Of a stretch of DNA of 24,075 bases, positions 16,907-21,868 are shown in pieces (within the stretch, counting starts at the first letter, position 1; each line of letters opens with the position of its first letter). The notes below the pieces were generated by a model. That model ran no database searches. It was not told where the DNA came from and was given only the letters and a program-made list of their open reading frames with translations. Source of the DNA: a virus. Location: positions 1 to 24,075 of IMG/VR virus record IMGVR_UViG_3300042924_002453; one strand, written 5' to 3'. Made by a program: the position numbers and the translations under genes.

Positions 16907-16955
16907 CCTTCCATACAATAGAGGTATCGGTTCGGGGCACAACGCTTACGACGAA

Positions 16956-16971
16956 GGGGACAAATGTCCCC
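16956..16971 (+). repeat. Hairpin repeat, copy 1
   Basis: GGGGACAAATGTCCCC: stem GGGGAC/GTCCCC with loop AAAT. This copy lies in the leader of the first early gene and ends 7 nt before its AGGAG, so folding could affect ribosome access. Four further copies follow at 17415, 18021, 19082 and 21796. Confidence 0.85.
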
Positions 16972-16990
16972 GTTCAATAGGAGTAACACA

Positions 16991-17413
16991 ATGTCTATCA
17001 ACAAACTGCAAACAGCCGTCACAACAGCCCTGCAACACGCCAAGGGTTACGCAGACGCCATCACAGACGCTACCAAGGCGGCAAAGGGTATGCCAAGGGA
17101 TGCGGTACGCACGGCCATCATGCCCACAGTGGCGGCCTTCTACGGGGTCAAGATGCAAGCGGGCGAGGGCAAAGCCGAGGGCACACAGGTCTTGGACAAA
17201 GATGCGGCCAAGTATGAGGCGGCACGCAAGGCGCTGTCGCGTCTGCTCGGGGACATTTGCGGCACTGAGGCATCAAGCCCGAACCGTGAGGCCGTGGTCG
17301 CGCCACGCAAGGTGTTCAAGTCTGTACTGAGTGAGATTCTCAACTCAGGCATGAGCAAGGCTGAATTCAATGCACTCATCGCCGAGTTGCGTGATTCTGT
17401 CTCTTTCGAGTAA
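16991..17413 (+). CDS. First early-arm gene, hypothetical Ala/Lys-rich protein
   Basis: A 140-residue helical protein beginning MSINKLQTAVTTALQHAKGY, with AAKGMPRDAVRTAIMPTVAA and DAAKYEAARKALSRLLGDIC. ATG at 16991 is chosen over an in-frame ATG at 16964 inside the hairpin repeat because AGGAG lies 7 nt upstream. The C-terminal part (SEILNSGMSKAEFNALIAEL) looks like a small helical domain. No family is recognised, and no Cys cluster or membrane span is seen. As the first gene after the divergent control region it may be an early regulator or takeover protein; that is inference. Confidence 0.75.
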   Translation: MSINKLQTAVTTALQHAKGYADAITDATKAAKGMPRDAVRTAIMPTVAAFYGVKMQAGEGKAEGTQVLDKDAAKYEAARKALSRLLGDICGTEASSPNREAVVAPRKVFKSVLSEILNSGMSKAEFNALIAELRDSVSFE

Positions 17414-17414
17414 T

Positions 17415-17430
17415 CGGGACAAATGTCCCC
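17415..17430 (+). repeat. Hairpin repeat, copy 2, with T tract
   Basis: CGGGACAAATGTCCCC, one base changed from the others, so the stem is GGGAC/GTCCC. It begins 2 nt after the stop of the first early gene and is followed by GTTG and six T, so this copy also looks like a weak intrinsic terminator. Confidence 0.8.
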
Positions 17431-17444
17431 GTTGTTTTTTCCCG

Positions 17445-17472
17445 AGCGGCACAGGCGTGAGGTCTGGCCGCT
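17445..17472 (+). promoter_or_regulatory. Leader hairpin of the 17516 gene
   Basis: AGCGGC (17445-17450) pairs with GCCGCT (17467-17472). Inside it CAG/CTG can add three pairs past a bulged A. A pyrimidine-rich stretch (TGTTTCTTTCCC) follows. It lies between hairpin copy 2 and the ribosome site. It may be a second terminator-like or leader structure for the next small genes. Confidence 0.45.
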
Positions 17473-17515
17473 GTTTCTTTCCCTGTCCAACACTTTTCAA
17501 CTGGAGATTATCACT

Positions 17516-17665
17516 ATGAAAAAACTGCTTGATGCGTACCGCAAACTACCATCCCCATCAAACCGAACCAAACTGCAAACCTACCTCAACAAGCACATGA
17601 TGGCCGTCTGTATGGCACTGCCTGAAGACATCGCCTTCCTCAAAGCCCACAACTTCACAATCTAA
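17516..17665 (+). CDS. Small hypothetical protein (49 aa)
   Basis: Begins MKKLLDAYRKLPSPSNRTKL, continues QTYLNKHMMAVCMALPEDIA and ends FLKAHNFTI. The ATG at 17516 has GGAG 9 nt before it; an upstream ATG in the same frame at 17423 falls inside the repeat copy and is not used. The protein is helical and basic at the N-terminus. I recall similar short proteins in early regions of environmental phages. The stop TAA forms the first bases of the next ribosome site (TAAGGAG). Function unknown. Confidence 0.72.
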   Translation: MKKLLDAYRKLPSPSNRTKLQTYLNKHMMAVCMALPEDIAFLKAHNFTI

Positions 17666-17675
17666 GGAGAACACC

Positions 17676-17816
17676 ATGTCACTCAGTAAATTCATTTCCC
17701 TGTGCCACGAGCGCACCATAGACCCAAGCCTTGCGCTTGAAAACCCCGCCATCATTGAAGCCCTCAAGGCCAAAGATGATGAAACCGTTGTAGACATTCT
17801 TGACACCGCATTTTAA
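17676..17816 (+). CDS. Very small acidic protein (46 aa)
   Basis: Read by hand from ATG at 17676 to TAA at 17814. The product begins MSLSKFISLCHERTIDPSLA and ends with LKAKDDETVVDILDTAF. It is acidic and likely helical. TAAGGAG six bases before ATG is a very strong site and contains the stop of the previous gene. The same 20-nt word that begins this gene, TAAGGAGAACACCATGTCAC, also begins the next gene, so the two starts are copies. No function is recognised. Confidence 0.72.
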   Translation: MSLSKFISLCHERTIDPSLALENPAIIEALKAKDDETVVDILDTAF

Positions 17817-17826
17817 GGAGAACACC

Positions 17827-18018
17827 ATGTCACGCACCTATTACAGCAAAGCCAAAATCAAAGCCCTCAAAGACCTTCGCATCCTGCGAGATGAGATAGT
17901 CGCATCCATGCCCAAGGGCAAGACCAAGCAAGACCTCATGGACAAAGCCCGCAACCGCACAGACCTCGACCATTGGAATGATGCAGTCAAGGGCGTGAAG
18001 CAAATGAGGCTGCTTTGA
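17827..18018 (+). CDS. Small basic protein (63 aa)
   Basis: Begins MSRTYYSKAKIKALKDLRIL and ends VKGVKQMRLL. ATG at 17827 follows TAAGGAG by 6 nt, and that word includes the stop codon of the previous small gene. The protein is Lys/Arg-rich and helical (MPKGKTKQDLMDKARNRTDL), so it may bind nucleic acid. Together with the two small genes before it, it forms a three-gene block ended by hairpin copy 3. Confidence 0.72.
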   Translation: MSRTYYSKAKIKALKDLRILRDEIVASMPKGKTKQDLMDKARNRTDLDHWNDAVKGVKQMRLL

Positions 18019-18020
18019 AC

Positions 18021-18036
18021 GGGGACAAATGTCCCC
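18021..18036 (+). repeat. Hairpin repeat, copy 3
   Basis: GGGGACAAATGTCCCC beginning 2 nt after the stop of the 63-residue gene. Here the flanking C (18020) and G (18037) add a seventh pair. No T tract follows, so it is not a classical terminator. Downstream is TGCAG...CTGCA (18055-18079), within which GGAC/GTCC can also pair. Confidence 0.85.
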
Positions 18037-18381
18037 GATGTGTCATTATCACGATGCAGGACTAAAGTCCGTGACTGCACGCACTGGGCGATACACTTGG
18101 ACACTCTAACTTGTTGATTTATAATAAAAACCAGCGTACCTATCCTATATATACATATATATAAATAGAGATAGAGATATAGAAATATATTTTTATATGC
18201 GTGCGACCTCGCTGGTCTTTGTTTCTTTGTCTTTGTTCCTTTGGGCTTTGATAGTTCCGGAAAACCATGTATAGCATGGATACCTAAAGACAATTCCTAT
18301 ATGAATCAAGCAGATAAAGTGTCCGGAAATATATCCCCGCCCGTGCTATCATGGACAATTTCAACCACAAGGAAGATAATC
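18037..18381 (+). promoter_or_regulatory. Non-coding AT-rich region with promoter
   Basis: About 345 nt with no gene. It holds nested inverted repeats (TGCAG/CTGCA at 18055-18079), a promoter with a perfect -10, a 73-nt very AT-rich loop bounded by ACCAGCG (18130-18136) and CGCTGGT (18210-18216), a CTTTG-rich low-complexity tract (18217-18250), a 5-bp hairpin CCATG/CATGG (18265-18279) and two copies of TCCGGAAA (near 18255 and 18320). The AT-rich part could be a replication origin or an unwinding element; that is inference. Confidence 0.6.
18097..18125 (+). promoter_or_regulatory. Predicted sigma70-like promoter
   Basis: TTGGAC (18097-18102), 17-nt spacer, TATAAT (18120-18125). The -10 is a perfect consensus; the -35 is weak (three of six). 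Start would be near 18132, exactly at the beginning of the ACCAGCG inverted repeat. It would drive the 18382 gene with a leader of about 250 nt. Confidence 0.5.
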
Positions 18382-19056
18382 ATGGGATACCGATTCGTTA
18401 AATACATGAAGATGAATACCAATGACCTAGACCGTATGCTCACACAGCAGGGCGTTGCGCCTTTGCGTGTGCAGGAAATCGTGGAAACCGTCACCGAACA
18501 AAAGGCCACACAGCGCAAAGCCCGAGCGCACAAACAGCAGATGGATTTGCAGTGGGGCGAGTTCCTTGCCCCGTTGATACATGAGCACAAGACCATACGC
18601 TCAATTCAGCGTTACAAGGGCAGTCCCGAGCGTGCCGCTGCACTCGAAGCGTATGCGTTGGTATTGGACAGTCTCAAAGGTCGCTTGCACCTACTCATGC
18701 GGGATAAAAACAAGACCCCTTTGCAGTTGTACCCTGAGCGCACGCATTGGAGTGATTATGTTCCTGCACACATTCGAGACGAAGTGCATCTGCTGTTCGA
18801 TGCCATACCCTACAAAGCCAAGGCCAAGGTCAAACTACCCTTTGCCCGAACCATACCTGTCATCTTGCACAACAAACGCAGGGAACGGCTACTGCGTAGT
18901 ACCCGTAAAGCGTTGGACAGAGCGCAGTCCGAGTACGCCATCAACCCATCCGATGAGAACGCCCATGAGTTATCCCGAATCAAGGAAGCCCTGCGAATCA
19001 TCAGGGACATGCACATGAACGAGCCAGTGCCAGCGACATGGCATGGGCTTTTCTGA
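18382..19056 (+). CDS. Hypothetical basic helical protein (224 aa)
   Basis: Begins MGYRFVKYMKMNTNDLDRML. The ATG at 18382 follows AAGGAAG by 6 nt and is preferred over an upstream non-ATG start at 18241 that would lie in the low-complexity leader. Residues about 25-80 are a helical basic segment (TEQKATQRKARAHKQQMDLQ). A conserved-looking middle follows (TPLQLYPERTHWSDYVPAHI, LLFDAIPYKAKAKVKLPFAR), then a helical Arg-rich end (RRERLLRSTRKALDRAQSEY). No known domain or catalytic triad is recognised. Possible DNA- or RNA-binding early protein. It is preceded by a long leader and followed by a small hairpin plus repeat copy 4. Confidence 0.75.
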   Translation: MGYRFVKYMKMNTNDLDRMLTQQGVAPLRVQEIVETVTEQKATQRKARAHKQQMDLQWGEFLAPLIHEHKTIRSIQRYKGSPERAAALEAYALVLDSLKGRLHLLMRDKNKTPLQLYPERTHWSDYVPAHIRDEVHLLFDAIPYKAKAKVKLPFARTIPVILHNKRRERLLRSTRKALDRAQSEYAINPSDENAHELSRIKEALRIIRDMHMNEPVPATWHGLF

Positions 19057-19057
19057 C

Positions 19058-19074
19058 GGGTGTCAACCCTTTTT
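19058..19074 (+). terminator. Weak terminator-like hairpin
   Basis: GGGT (19058-19061) and ACCC (19066-19069) with loop GTCA, followed by five T. It lies 1 nt after the stop codon of the 224-residue protein. The stem is only 4 bp, so termination would be partial. It is close to the next hairpin repeat (19082). Confidence 0.4.
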
Positions 19075-19081
19075 AAGCAAC

Positions 19082-19097
19082 GGGGACAAATGTCCCC
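19082..19097 (+). repeat. Hairpin repeat, copy 4
   Basis: GGGGACAAATGTCCCC at the head of the leader of the 19182 gene. It is followed 20 nt later by an 8-bp stem and the word CATTCGTAACTGA, the same order as in the 21869 leader. Confidence 0.85.
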
Positions 19098-19117
19098 ATT
19101 CATGGTGCGTAGCATTT

Positions 19118-19158
19118 TGTCAGGCGATGCCGCGCACTACCCCGAACCTAGCCTGACA
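19118..19158 (+). promoter_or_regulatory. Leader stem before the 19182 gene
   Basis: TGTCAGGC (19118-19125) and GCCTGACA (19151-19158) are exact complements with a 25-nt loop. Its right arm runs straight into CATTCGTAACTGA (19157-19169) and the AAGGAG ribosome site. The matching stem at 21823-21844 has a different sequence but the same 8-bp length and position, which points to selection on RNA shape. Confidence 0.65.
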
Positions 19159-19181
19159 TTCGTAACTGAAGGAGAAAGCAA

Positions 19182-19586
19182 ATGAGATACGCAACATTGA
19201 TGGAAGCCCAGATGGGCGAGTGGCCTGACAGCTTAGTGCTGACTGATGCCCAAATGCTTGAAGCAATGGCAAACGAAGTGCCTGAGTGGATAGCCAAACA
19301 CAAATTCAAGGATTGGCGTAGCTACGAAGCACGACATGAGATGGGTTGGTACGCCGAGATTCACTATGACGAATGGAGGCGAGCAATGATGGAGGAGACA
19401 CGCGCACGATGGGCACGAGCGGCGTTCAGGTGCAGGATAGGAGACTCACAAGGTTTCTTCTATGCCTGCGGCAAGCGAGACGATGGGACATACCAGTATG
19501 TAGGGTTTCGCTACGGCTTGGAGGACTGCGAGTACGCATCAGGCTTTCTTGACATGACATACACACCACAAGGAGAAACACAATGA
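19182..19586 (+). CDS. Hypothetical Trp/Glu-rich protein (134 aa)
   Basis: Begins MRYATLMEAQMGEWPDSLVL, with VPEWIAKHKFKDWRSYEARH and YADI-like aromatic stretches, then GFFYACGKRDDGTYQYVGFR. It is acidic with many Trp and Tyr and has Cys in RCRIG, ACGK and EDCEY. No family is recognised. It is the first of a run of ten small genes. Its last five residues, QGETQ, are encoded by the ribosome-site module of the next gene (AAGGAGAAACACAATGA). ATGA overlap with the next start. Confidence 0.72.
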   Translation: MRYATLMEAQMGEWPDSLVLTDAQMLEAMANEVPEWIAKHKFKDWRSYEARHEMGWYAEIHYDEWRRAMMEETRARWARAAFRCRIGDSQGFFYACGKRDDGTYQYVGFRYGLEDCEYASGFLDMTYTPQGETQ

Positions 19587-19813
19587 GTGAGTACAGAAAT
19601 TTATGTAGTGATAAGCAAGCGAGGGTGTATGCCTGCGCCGAGGCGATACGAGTAGGCGACTGCCTGCCTGTATTTCGTTATTTTGGTAGTGACGCACCTA
19701 AGTTCTACGCAGAGGTGCTCGCGCCTATCAAAGAACGATTCACGATGGTGAGCGGGTATTGGGGCGTGATGCAGAAGCACCCACGCATTTATCTTTTTGT
19801 TATGGGGGAATGA
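19583..19813 (+). CDS. Hypothetical protein (76 aa)
   Basis: Begins MSEYRNLCSDKQARVYACAE and ends VMQKHPRIYLFVMGE. AAGGAGAAACACA provides the ribosome site at the standard 13-nt distance. The protein is aromatic-rich and has three Cys (LCSD, YACAE, DCLP). It is followed by TGAAATG, one base short of overlapping the next start. No function is recognised. Confidence 0.68.
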   Translation: MSEYRNLCSDKQARVYACAEAIRVGDCLPVFRYFGSDAPKFYAEVLAPIKERFTMVSGYWGVMQKHPRIYLFVMGE

Positions 19814-19814
19814 A

Positions 19815-20006
19815 ATGAGAGCAAAAGCTGTACTGAGTCACATATTCCTGAGCCTCGTGCTCTACAACGCAATGGCCGTTGGAATCAACCAAGTGATAGA
19901 GCTAGGTGGTGGTTACATCTGGATATTCATGGCGCTTGGCAGTGCGTTCCTGTTGGGGATGCAAGTCATGCTGGTGGTAATTGAATGTAAAGGAGAAACG
20001 AAATGA
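19815..20006 (+). CDS. Small two-helix membrane protein
   Basis: A 63-residue protein with two hydrophobic stretches, about residues 5-24 (AVLSHIFLSLVLYNAMAVGI) and 33-57 (GYIWIFMALGSAFLLGMQVM and on). The ATG at 19815 is preferred over an upstream TTG at 19797; GGGGGA supplies a ribosome site. Two helices with short polar ends resemble holins, anti-holins, superinfection-exclusion or other small phage membrane proteins. In an early-type block, exclusion or takeover is more likely than lysis. The end KGETK is read from the next gene's ribosome module. Confidence 0.68.
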   Translation: MRAKAVLSHIFLSLVLYNAMAVGINQVIELGGGYIWIFMALGSAFLLGMQVMLVVIECKGETK

Positions 20007-20158
20007 GAGTACATGAACTGATAGCACTGTTGAAAACAGTAGACCCTGAATCCGAGGTGTTTGTGTGGGTAGACGGCGAACGACACCCCGTGACAGAGAT
20101 TGACCCGATGGACTGGTATGTGGACATCAACGCCGATACGAAAGAGAGGATGAAATGA
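20003..20158 (+). CDS. Small acidic hypothetical protein (51 aa)
   Basis: Read by hand from ATG at 20003 to TGA at 20156. The product begins MRVHELIALLKTVDPESEVF, continues VWVDGERHPVTEIDPMDWYV and ends DINADTKERMK. A helix then a strand-turn-strand with acidic residues resembles a small alpha/beta protein that I recall in several phages. It overlaps both neighbours by ATGA, with the module AAGGAGAAACGAA as its ribosome site. No function is known. Confidence 0.75.
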   Translation: MRVHELIALLKTVDPESEVFVWVDGERHPVTEIDPMDWYVDINADTKERMK

Positions 20159-20373
20159 AAACAGCATCGATTGGATTCATGCGTGAAGACGGCGACCTCA
20201 CACTGGTCGCCACATTGAACAACCTTGATGGGCACATGACAGACAGTGCCTTCAAGATTCTTTTGGATGGGGTGAAAGCCTACATCGAGCTGATGTCAAA
20301 ACGAAATGATGTGGTTGTACTCGAGCGTGAGGATGCGCCCGACTATGTGGAACTCAACTTAGACAACGAGTAA
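20155..20373 (+). CDS. Hypothetical acidic protein (72 aa)
   Basis: Begins MKTASIGFMREDGDLTLVAT and ends DAPDYVELNLDNE. It has an N-terminal strand region, a helix (DSAFKILLDGVKAYIELMSK) and an acidic tail. GAAAGAGAGGATGAA supplies only a weak ribosome site (GAGAGG), and the ATGA overlap suggests coupling. It lacks the KGET-type tail seen in its neighbours. Function not recognised. Confidence 0.68.
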   Translation: MKTASIGFMREDGDLTLVATLNNLDGHMTDSAFKILLDGVKAYIELMSKRNDVVVLEREDAPDYVELNLDNE

Positions 20374-20387
20374 GAAGGAGAAACAAC

Positions 20388-20588
20388 ATGAGATTAGATA
20401 CTGTGATGCAAGAGACGCTTGAGTACATCAATGGCGAATTAGTAGGTGTTGTGAAACGCTTGCACTATGTCGCTAACAACATTGACGATATACGAGAACG
20501 CGATGACTGTTGTCAACAAGTCGAAGAGTCCATCAACAAACTGCGGGACTTGATTAGAGAAACTGACCTCAAAGGAGAAAGCAAATGA
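20388..20588 (+). CDS. Helical hypothetical protein (66 aa)
   Basis: Begins MRLDTVMQETLEYINGELVG, with LHYVANNIDDIRERDDCCQQ and INKLRDLIRETDLKGESK. Regular hydrophobic spacing suggests a coiled coil or helical hairpin; a CC pair lies at the turn. AAGGAGAAACAAC is the ribosome module at 13 nt. Its C-terminus KGESK comes from the next module. It could form dimers. Function unknown. Confidence 0.7.
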   Translation: MRLDTVMQETLEYINGELVGVVKRLHYVANNIDDIRERDDCCQQVEESINKLRDLIRETDLKGESK

Positions 20589-20782
20589 AAGATACAAAGA
20601 TGAGCGTAGCGTTGCTTGACAACATAACTAAGTCTGTCGTGGTGAACATCGGCAAGACAGGCGCATACATCGAGGTATGGATAGACGGTAAGGACATATC
20701 AATCTGCCTCATCAACGATGCGGGCGACATCGTGCGCTCAATAGATGAGCCACTCACAACATTAAAAGGAGAAACAGAATGA
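20585..20782 (+). CDS. Hypothetical protein (65 aa)
   Basis: Begins MKDTKMSVALLDNITKSVVV, with NIGKTGAYIEVWIDGKDISI and CLINDAGDIVRSIDEPLTT. The alternation of strands and turns suggests a small beta barrel or sandwich. The tail KGETE is encoded by the next module. ATGA overlaps at both ends. No family recognised. Confidence 0.68.
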   Translation: MKDTKMSVALLDNITKSVVVNIGKTGAYIEVWIDGKDISICLINDAGDIVRSIDEPLTTLKGETE

Positions 20783-21027
20783 ACGAAACAAAGACACAGC
20801 ACATCGGAAACATTCATTTCGGGATAGACGGCAACGACGAATATGTGCTGTTGGAATTTGCCGAGGACACGACTTCAGACGCTGCTAAAGAGTGGTTGTT
20901 GCATCAAGTCTATCGAGACACCACGCAAGAAGCAGGCGGGTACTTCTGCAAACGAGTGACCATCATGCCCAACCCCTACCACGCCAACAAGTTTGTTGGT
21001 GTGATTCACCACGAATACGATGTTTAA
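20779..21027 (+). CDS. Hypothetical protein (82 aa)
   Basis: Begins MNETKTQHIGNIHFGIDGND and ends NKFVGVIHHEYDV. The segment EYVLLEFAEDTTSDAAKEWL suggests a strand followed by a helix. Polar residues dominate; there is a single Cys (FCKR). Ribosome module AAGGAGAAACAGA at 13 nt. It is followed by a short gap and the next module. No function recognised. Confidence 0.68.
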   Translation: MNETKTQHIGNIHFGIDGNDEYVLLEFAEDTTSDAAKEWLLHQVYRDTTQEAGGYFCKRVTIMPNPYHANKFVGVIHHEYDV

Positions 21028-21042
21028 CCAAGGAGAAAGCAA

Positions 21043-21276
21043 ATGAACGAACCAGTACAACACTTCTACGCCTCAAGCGTAGCGCAATGGGCAACGACTA
21101 CACCTGAGCGAGACCTGCGCCAGCTACTCAAGCTGATGGACAAGGATAGGTTCTCATACAACCTGTACCTAGTACCAGTGGCGCACGATGCACAGTACGA
21201 CATCAAGATGTACCAACCCCAAGTCGAGGGCACTCAATGGCTTGGATTCTTTACGGTAAAAAGAGGGAGAAACTAA
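21043..21276 (+). CDS. Hypothetical protein (77 aa)
   Basis: Begins MNEPVQHFYASSVAQWATTT and ends EGTQWLGFFTVKRGRN. It has a helical start (PERDLRQLLKLMDKDRFSYN) then aromatic strands (LYLVPVAHDAQYDIKMYQPQ). Ribosome module AAGGAGAAAGCAA at 13 nt, identical to that of the 19182 and 20585 genes. The stop TAA directly abuts the next ATG. Function unknown. Confidence 0.68.
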   Translation: MNEPVQHFYASSVAQWATTTPERDLRQLLKLMDKDRFSYNLYLVPVAHDAQYDIKMYQPQVEGTQWLGFFTVKRGRN

Positions 21277-21522
21277 ATGAAACACCAATGGAAAACAGGT
21301 CGTGCATACGACGAGCACGGACAACGCATGGTTGCGCTGATAGACACAGGCGACTGCTGCATCAGGTTCAGCGACTTGTCACGCAACATAGATGGGGCTG
21401 TGCCGCTGGGCAACTACCTGCAAAACCACAGGCTTGACGCCTACACACTGGAGGCTTTGGTCATGGCGAACTATGACTTCGGCAACTATTCACCGAGCAA
21501 CATAACACTTAACTGGGAGTAA
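21277..21522 (+). CDS. Hypothetical protein (81 aa)
   Basis: Begins MKHQWKTGRAYDEHGQRMVA, with LIDTGDCCIRFSDLSRNIDG and ALVMANYDFGNYSPSNITLN. It starts as a beta-type fold with a CC pair and has an aromatic end. The module is a degenerate AGGGAGAAACTAA. A small domain of unknown function, lying near the end of the small-ORF array. Confidence 0.68.
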   Translation: MKHQWKTGRAYDEHGQRMVALIDTGDCCIRFSDLSRNIDGAVPLGNYLQNHRLDAYTLEALVMANYDFGNYSPSNITLNWE

Positions 21523-21526
21523 TGAC

Positions 21527-21790
21527 ATGAGTGACTTTGACATCAATGAATTTTTAACACACATGCAGGCATCAGGCTTGCGAACCATTGTGATAACAGA
21601 CGATGAGGGTGTACCCATGACAGACGCACAGATACACGAGGCCGCAGGCTATCTCGAAACTAAAGAGGGTGGGTTTGCCAACGCCATCGCAATGGCTTAC
21701 TACCGAGCAGACAGCGGCAACAAACGCAGGCTGTTAGATGCGTTCGGGGATTTGTTTGAGAGTGCCTACGCTAAGTGGCACAAGGAGTAA
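21527..21790 (+). CDS. Hypothetical helical protein (87 aa)
   Basis: Begins MSDFDINEFLTHMQASGLRT and ends FGDLFESAYAKWHKE. It contains IVITDDEGVPMTDAQIHEAA, GYLETKEGGFANAIAMAYYR and ADSGNKRRLLDAFGDLFESA, mostly helical. GGGAG 7 nt before the ATG is the ribosome site; this gene has a different start context from the module genes. It is the last of the array and is followed by repeat copy 5. No family recognised. Confidence 0.7.
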   Translation: MSDFDINEFLTHMQASGLRTIVITDDEGVPMTDAQIHEAAGYLETKEGGFANAIAMAYYRADSGNKRRLLDAFGDLFESAYAKWHKE

Positions 21791-21795
21791 TGAAC

Positions 21796-21811
21796 GGGGA
21801 CAAATGTCCCC
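21796..21811 (+). repeat. Hairpin repeat, copy 5
   Basis: GGGGACAAATGTCCCC, beginning 5 nt after the stop of the last small gene. As with copy 4 it opens a leader with an 8-bp stem and CATTCGTAACTGA. Confidence 0.85.
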
Positions 21812-21822
21812 ATCAAGGGTTA

Positions 21823-21844
21823 GCAGTGTGCCCACTCACACTGC
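21823..21844 (+). promoter_or_regulatory. Leader stem before the 21869 gene
   Basis: GCAGTGTG (21823-21830) and CACACTGC (21837-21844) form an 8-bp stem with loop CCCACT, directly followed by CATTCGTAACTGA (21844-21856) and AGGAG. It matches the architecture of the 19182 leader with a different stem sequence. Confidence 0.7.
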
Positions 21845-21868
21845 ATTCGTAACTGAGGAGTATTAAAA

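Follow-up and report, generated by a model that had tools for sequence, protein, structure and literature searches.

Palindromes of the early region are probable dimeric operators that change with the first early gene in a family of freshwater phages

Phages of a large freshwater family carry, at matching places in their early region, short palindromes whose arms change from phage to phage together with the N-terminal domain (N-domain) of the protein encoded by the first early gene (gene 1), and on comparison of the sequences we consider it highly likely that these palindromes are duplex DNA operators, bound by the gene 1 protein as a dimer. The sites, their places, the covariation of protein and word and the free centre at fixed spacing were obtained directly by computation on the window (the whole stretch of 24,075 nucleotides that was analysed) and its relatives.

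Five palindromes lie between genes of the right arm

The word GGGGACAAATGTCCCC was found exactly at positions 16956, 18021, 19082 and 21796 (+ strand), with a copy carrying one mismatch at 17415, as an earlier note on this DNA had reported. A search of all 24,075 bases allowing up to three mismatches gave a full count of five copies, and the left arm, which the note had described as free of the word, yielded no further copy. Counted on both strands there were 10 matches, against 0.2 expected by chance and a maximum of 2 in 100 shuffles. Viewed as a duplex, it forms a 7-2-7 palindrome, GGGGACA-AA-TGTCCCC. All five copies were intergenic and in the right arm only, and the gene context agreed with the places first given for them, one in the gene 1 leader and the rest 1 to 25 nt past stop codons. 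The features are as follows (palindromes are given without strand).

16914..16919, + strand: predicted -10 box TACAAT of the early promoter (consensus prediction)
16956..16971: palindrome 1 (site A), GGGGACA-AA-TGTCCCC, in the gene 1 leader at about +38 from the predicted transcription start
16991..17413, + strand: gene 1 (ATG at 16991), the first early gene, 140 aa, a candidate palindrome-binding protein whose N-domain covaries with the arms
17415..17430: palindrome 2 (site B), CGGGACA-AA-TGTCCCC, 1 nt past the gene 1 stop (17413), with a T tract after it
18021..18036: palindrome 3 (site C), 2 nt past a stop codon ending at 18018
19082..19097: palindrome 4 (site D), 25 nt past a stop (19056) and directly before a conserved structured leader
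19098..19181, + strand: leader after site D, a probable RNA pseudoknot; an adjoining element, outside the operator
21796..21811: palindrome 5 (site E), 5 nt past a stop (21790) and directly before a conserved structured leader
21818..21860, + strand: leader after site E, an RNA hairpin with covariation that ends at the ribosome-binding site; an adjoining element

As RNA, the window palindromes would form perfect hairpins of -8.8 to -13.9 kcal/mol. Factor-independent terminators with stems that are alike by chance are nevertheless a highly unlikely explanation: site B does have a 3' T tract, and the same 16-mer serves as an A-tract/T-tract terminator in marine phages, but the tract is missing from the other four copies (sites A, C, D and E), as the earlier note had seen in arguing that these are not ordinary terminators, and terminators would not predict arms that are identical within a phage or phage-specific words that are tied to a protein domain. 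The region beyond site B (17431-17490 of the window) has a second hairpin in many relatives, T-rich on its 3' side, where the gene 1 transcript probably terminates.

Relatives keep the places of the palindromes and change the word

Collecting relatives with the terminase gene gave 80 loci from a large family of freshwater phages of about 60 kb, and nearly all of those covering the early region had 3-7 palindromes at matching places. The arms were phage-specific (GCAGACA, GGGTCAC, CGGGTCAC, GTGTCAC, GTGGGACA, TGGGACA, GTGGTCA, GCGGACA, GGGGAGA, GGGAAGA, GGGGTAG and more). Palindromes lay within 60 nt after the end of an open reading frame in 72% of cases, against 30% for random positions, with 3 nt the commonest distance, and in three complete relatives, which have terminal repeats, those of the phage's own type fell almost wholly within one early region. 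The regulatory role at gene-block boundaries that had been suggested for the window copies is supported.

Within a phage the arms were identical while the centre letters changed. All five window copies do have AA in the same direction, as had been noted, but at the same sites in relatives both letters and direction were free: AA, TT, GT, CT, GA, TA, AC, TC and others occurred, with one AA and four TT centres in L164 and six different centres in L295. The five AA centres are therefore a property of the window phage and not of the element. Among the 94 phages with at least three sites, 85 had the arrangement expected of a dimeric palindromic operator, with equal half-sites at a fixed spacing around a free centre, and in the remaining nine the centre length differed by 1 within the phage. 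In type 3 phages (for example L305, L317 and L356; types are those of gene 1, below) the inner pair of site A is often broken, in one half only (GCAGACATCTCGTCTGC), a pattern suggestive of tuned affinity.

The exact 16-mer was present in 118 loci among viral contigs. These could not be treated as one family, being a mixture of terminators, REP-like repeats, single chance matches and true families, and the mere database count means little because the 16-mer also arises by other routes, such as the marine-phage terminator. In L163, L033 and L066, GGGGACAAATGTCCCC lies inside a reading frame and is seemingly coding (GDKCPNKGEHW), and coincidences of this sort make plain counts of the word too high. 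A GC-rich phage group (L002, L028, L071 and L094) has up to six exact copies, in both orientations and near ribosome-binding sites; no gene-1 domain was recognised in three of these four.

Repeated copies at gene boundaries, and the REP-like GGGGACA clusters of some other contigs, could also be read as selfish or recombination repeats (REP-like elements or boundary sequences) that proliferate and become uniform across a genome. We give this very little credence, as each phage has merely 3-7 copies at fixed homologous places, their centres and flanks are not homogenised, and they are tightly tied to one protein domain.

The arms covary with the N-domain of the gene 1 protein

Gene 1 lies between palindrome copies 1 and 2. 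When gene 1 was extracted from all loci, its product was found to comprise an N-domain of about 95 aa, of several types, and a C-terminal domain (C-domain) of about 35 aa that is exchanged among those types. AlphaFold2 models of types 1 and 4 were alike, with the predicted N-domain order helix-helix-beta hairpin-helix followed by short C-terminal helices, and profile comparison connected N-domain types 1-4 and 3-4. Searches of Pfam, PHROG and the PDB matched nothing to the protein, and neither a DNA-binding fold nor an HTH_3 domain above cut-off was recognised in it; tblastn found no homologs in named phages, and a structure search with the two models gave nothing significant, its one weak viral match being an uncharacterised phage protein. 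A BEN-domain match of one gene 1 type (E 0.0025) fell short of the Pfam cut-off and was set aside. The C-domains (about 17285-17410 in the window) comprise at least four unrelated-looking C-terminal helical hairpins of 30-35 aa, shuffled among N-domain types. It is its covariation with the palindromes that makes gene 1 a candidate DNA binder.

Close gene 1 homologs were seen only in relatives with a GGGACA-like word. Protein searches with gene 1 brought in more than 200 loci, and 50 of the 51 new loci with the window type, found by protein search alone, had GGGAC palindromes; type 3 paired with words of the GCAGAC, GCGGAC or GTGGAC kind and type 4 with GGGTCA. Loci L375-L379, which share the C-domain only, have different words and form a natural control. 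Over 107 non-redundant loci, similarity of the N-domain correlated with similarity of the half-site (Mantel r = 0.557, 0 of 1000 permutations), also with the C-domain controlled (r = 0.554), and the C-domain given the N-domain did not (-0.18), values that are descriptive since the permutation tests ignore the gene tree of gene 1. Terminase similarity gave no correlation with the half-site (-0.015), and two other early genes gave r of 0.32 and 0.41 in loci where the N-domain reached 0.74 and 0.79; these three genes were accordingly rejected as the covarying factor.

Two further comparisons suffer less from the gene-tree weakness than the permutation tests. The first is of near-identical genomes: the window phage and L124 have terminases that are 96% identical, unrelated N-domains (similarity 0.05) and different words, a pattern repeated by L382 and L275, with N-domain similarity across such pairs of 0.05-0.07. 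The second is a reverse test on the 118 loci fetched by the word, where an N-domain of the gene 1 type was present in 35 of the 45 with at least two GGGACA palindromes and in 3 of the 73 with one; the other 10 word-rich loci had no recognised gene-1 domain. To judge from the sequences, the N- and C-domains of gene 1 recombine separately, each lineage having its own N-domain and the matching word. Recognition by a phage protein, one of several roles first proposed for the palindromes, is thus very probable, as the arms track the gene 1 N-domain.

A duplex operator is favoured over an RNA hairpin

The earlier note preferred an RNA hairpin to a two-fold DNA operator, an argument that relied on all five centres pointing the same way. 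Because relatives vary the centre freely, its direction was rejected as evidence for RNA and the preference is unsupported. We nonetheless weighed the palindromes as RNA hairpins bound by the gene 1 protein for antitermination, processing or translational control, a reading that we regard as unlikely. The copies do form perfect hairpins in the window and mostly lie in transcribed gaps past stop codons, and covariation with gene 1 would appear identical for an RNA target. Known RNA hairpin binders, on the other hand, usually read the loop, and here loop letters and direction are free. A loop-read hairpin should have a conserved loop and a covarying stem; within each phage the stem was fixed and the loop free.

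Covariation of the stem had been proposed as a check, and the bases beside the palindromes showed no stem-like covariation. The GCAGACA family has a longer half-site, AACT-S-GCAGACA, in which the S position (-1/+1) is degenerate and independent between the halves (19 paired against 16.2 expected), and in the GGGTCA family pairing of the flanks was far below chance. A neighbouring true hairpin, the leader after site E, behaves in the opposite way to the palindromes, with stem pairs that swap freely and a loop that is kept: among 14 sequences, 7 of 7 core stem pairs were kept, 5 of them changed on both sides. Many first sites, moreover, stand upstream of the predicted promoter and are spaced by turns of the helix (below). 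A DNA operator is therefore favoured because the arms are kept, the spacing is fixed and the centre letters are free, because the flanking bases do not pair above chance, and because first sites occur upstream of the predicted promoter at steps of about 10 bp.

The site E leader has the pattern GGTTAG-stem-CCNNCT-stem, also found in L180, L185, L455 and others. The site D leader resembles an H-type pseudoknot (GGTGCG/CGCACC and GGCTA/TAGCC) and is common to L256, L271, L134, L164 and others. An Rfam search of the window, both leaders included, gave no match.

Hairpins upstream of genes also recall the DNA-hairpin promoters used by the virion RNA polymerase of N4-type phages, and each genome encodes a giant protein (open reading frames of 2,150-3,270 aa). 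This explanation is barely credible: an LPD38 domain was found in the giant proteins scanned, the one searched against the PDB resembled no solved structure, the hairpin loops are not conserved and the word follows gene 1. A search with the RNA polymerase profile PF00940 gave no match, a result of little weight because its positive control gave none either. The giant protein (L202:8845-18216, L208:2747-10252 and L216:3677-12643), with LPD38 in 3 of 3 scanned, is probably an injected polyvalent protein.

Probable phasing of site A with the predicted early promoter

Promoters were predicted with a hand-made consensus. Where site A was downstream it lay mostly 34-51 bp past the predicted start. 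In type 4 phages it lay upstream of the predicted -10 box, at -37.5, -48.5, -58.5/59.5, -68.5/69.5 and -79.5, and in a few other types at -48.5, -51 and -61.5. The upstream distances, from 40 distinct contexts that reduce to about 10 independent type-distance combinations, step by about 10.3 bp, or about one helical turn. This phasing backs a duplex operator read by a dimer but is supportive, not decisive, given a promoter predicted from a consensus and so few independent combinations.

Proposed action of the gene 1 protein and likeness to known systems

We infer binding by the gene 1 protein, its dimerisation and the early promoter. The protein (16991-17413), made early, would bind the palindromes as a dimer with one N-domain on each half-site GGGGACA. 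Through site A, beside the early promoter, gene 1 would regulate itself, and sites B to E, past stop codons, could act as stoperator-like brakes or roadblocks that split early transcription into blocks. That the effect is repression or roadblock instead of activation is the most speculative step in this mechanism.

The phage family looks lytic, because no tyrosine integrase (PF00589), resolvase (PF00239) or ParA (PF13614) was found in 10 related contigs, of which 3 are complete (absence of an integrase from incomplete contigs being weak evidence), and because a scan of genome contigs gave only two relatives, both in metagenome-assembled genomes, and no clear prophage. Since the family looks lytic, mutual shut-off of co-infecting phages with the same word is a plausible reason for the diversity of words: a resident phage would shut off the early genes of the co-infecting phage, so that new words would be favoured. 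Such exclusion is among the least certain of the roles considered here. The diversity of words raises the question of why seemingly non-lysogenic phages would diversify operator specificity as temperate phages diversify immunity.

The closest comparison is with the repressor/stoperator system of Cluster A mycobacteriophages (L5, Bxb1, TipsytheTRex), in which a monomer reads each asymmetric 13-mer stoperator (PMC6550527, PMC9283540). As there, short sites occur many times in each genome, share a single motif within a phage and mostly occupy short intergenic gaps; some sites are at the early promoter and most elsewhere, one being beside the protein's own gene; and motif and phage protein change together. 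Unlike stoperators, the sites of the window family are palindromic (7-2-7, with free centres), few, restricted to the early region and not direction-bound. Whereas the Cluster A repressor has a helix-turn-helix and a stoperator domain, no helix-turn-helix was recognised in the gene 1 protein, an unrelated product of the first early gene, and in contrast to the temperate Cluster A, integrase or ParA was not found in relatives of the window phage.

Lambdoid CI/Cro proteins bind dimeric operators with palindromic half-sites and autoregulate at an early promoter, with specificity that varies among relatives. The window family is alike in its palindromic half-sites, proposed autoregulation at the early promoter and relative-specific words; it differs in having no HTH_3 domain above cut-off, no CI-like partner found and sites scattered past stop codons over about 5 kb.

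The loci provide a natural code of more than 100 non-redundant protein-operator pairs, with about eight domain types, in abundant uncultured phages, and gene 1 may represent a family of phage switch proteins that is as yet undescribed and whose specificity can be swapped. We suggest, tentatively and with considerable doubt, that gene 1 may found an undescribed superfamily of phage DNA-binding regulators with exchangeable C-domains, whose operator words diversified as an immunity-like system in widespread lytic freshwater phages.

A cultured distant relative from freshwater, MinM2 / Pag-Yong1 (OQ594354; 69% GC), has about 20 GGTTCA-NNN-TGAACC palindromes, for which no description was found in the literature searched; many lie 3 nt past a stop codon and about 21 nt ahead of a start codon. 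Compared with the window phage it has another N-domain and more copies, some of them inside genes. Its first early gene likewise lies between two palindromes, and its product has a C-domain in common with that of gene 1 (E 2.6e-4 in a small search).
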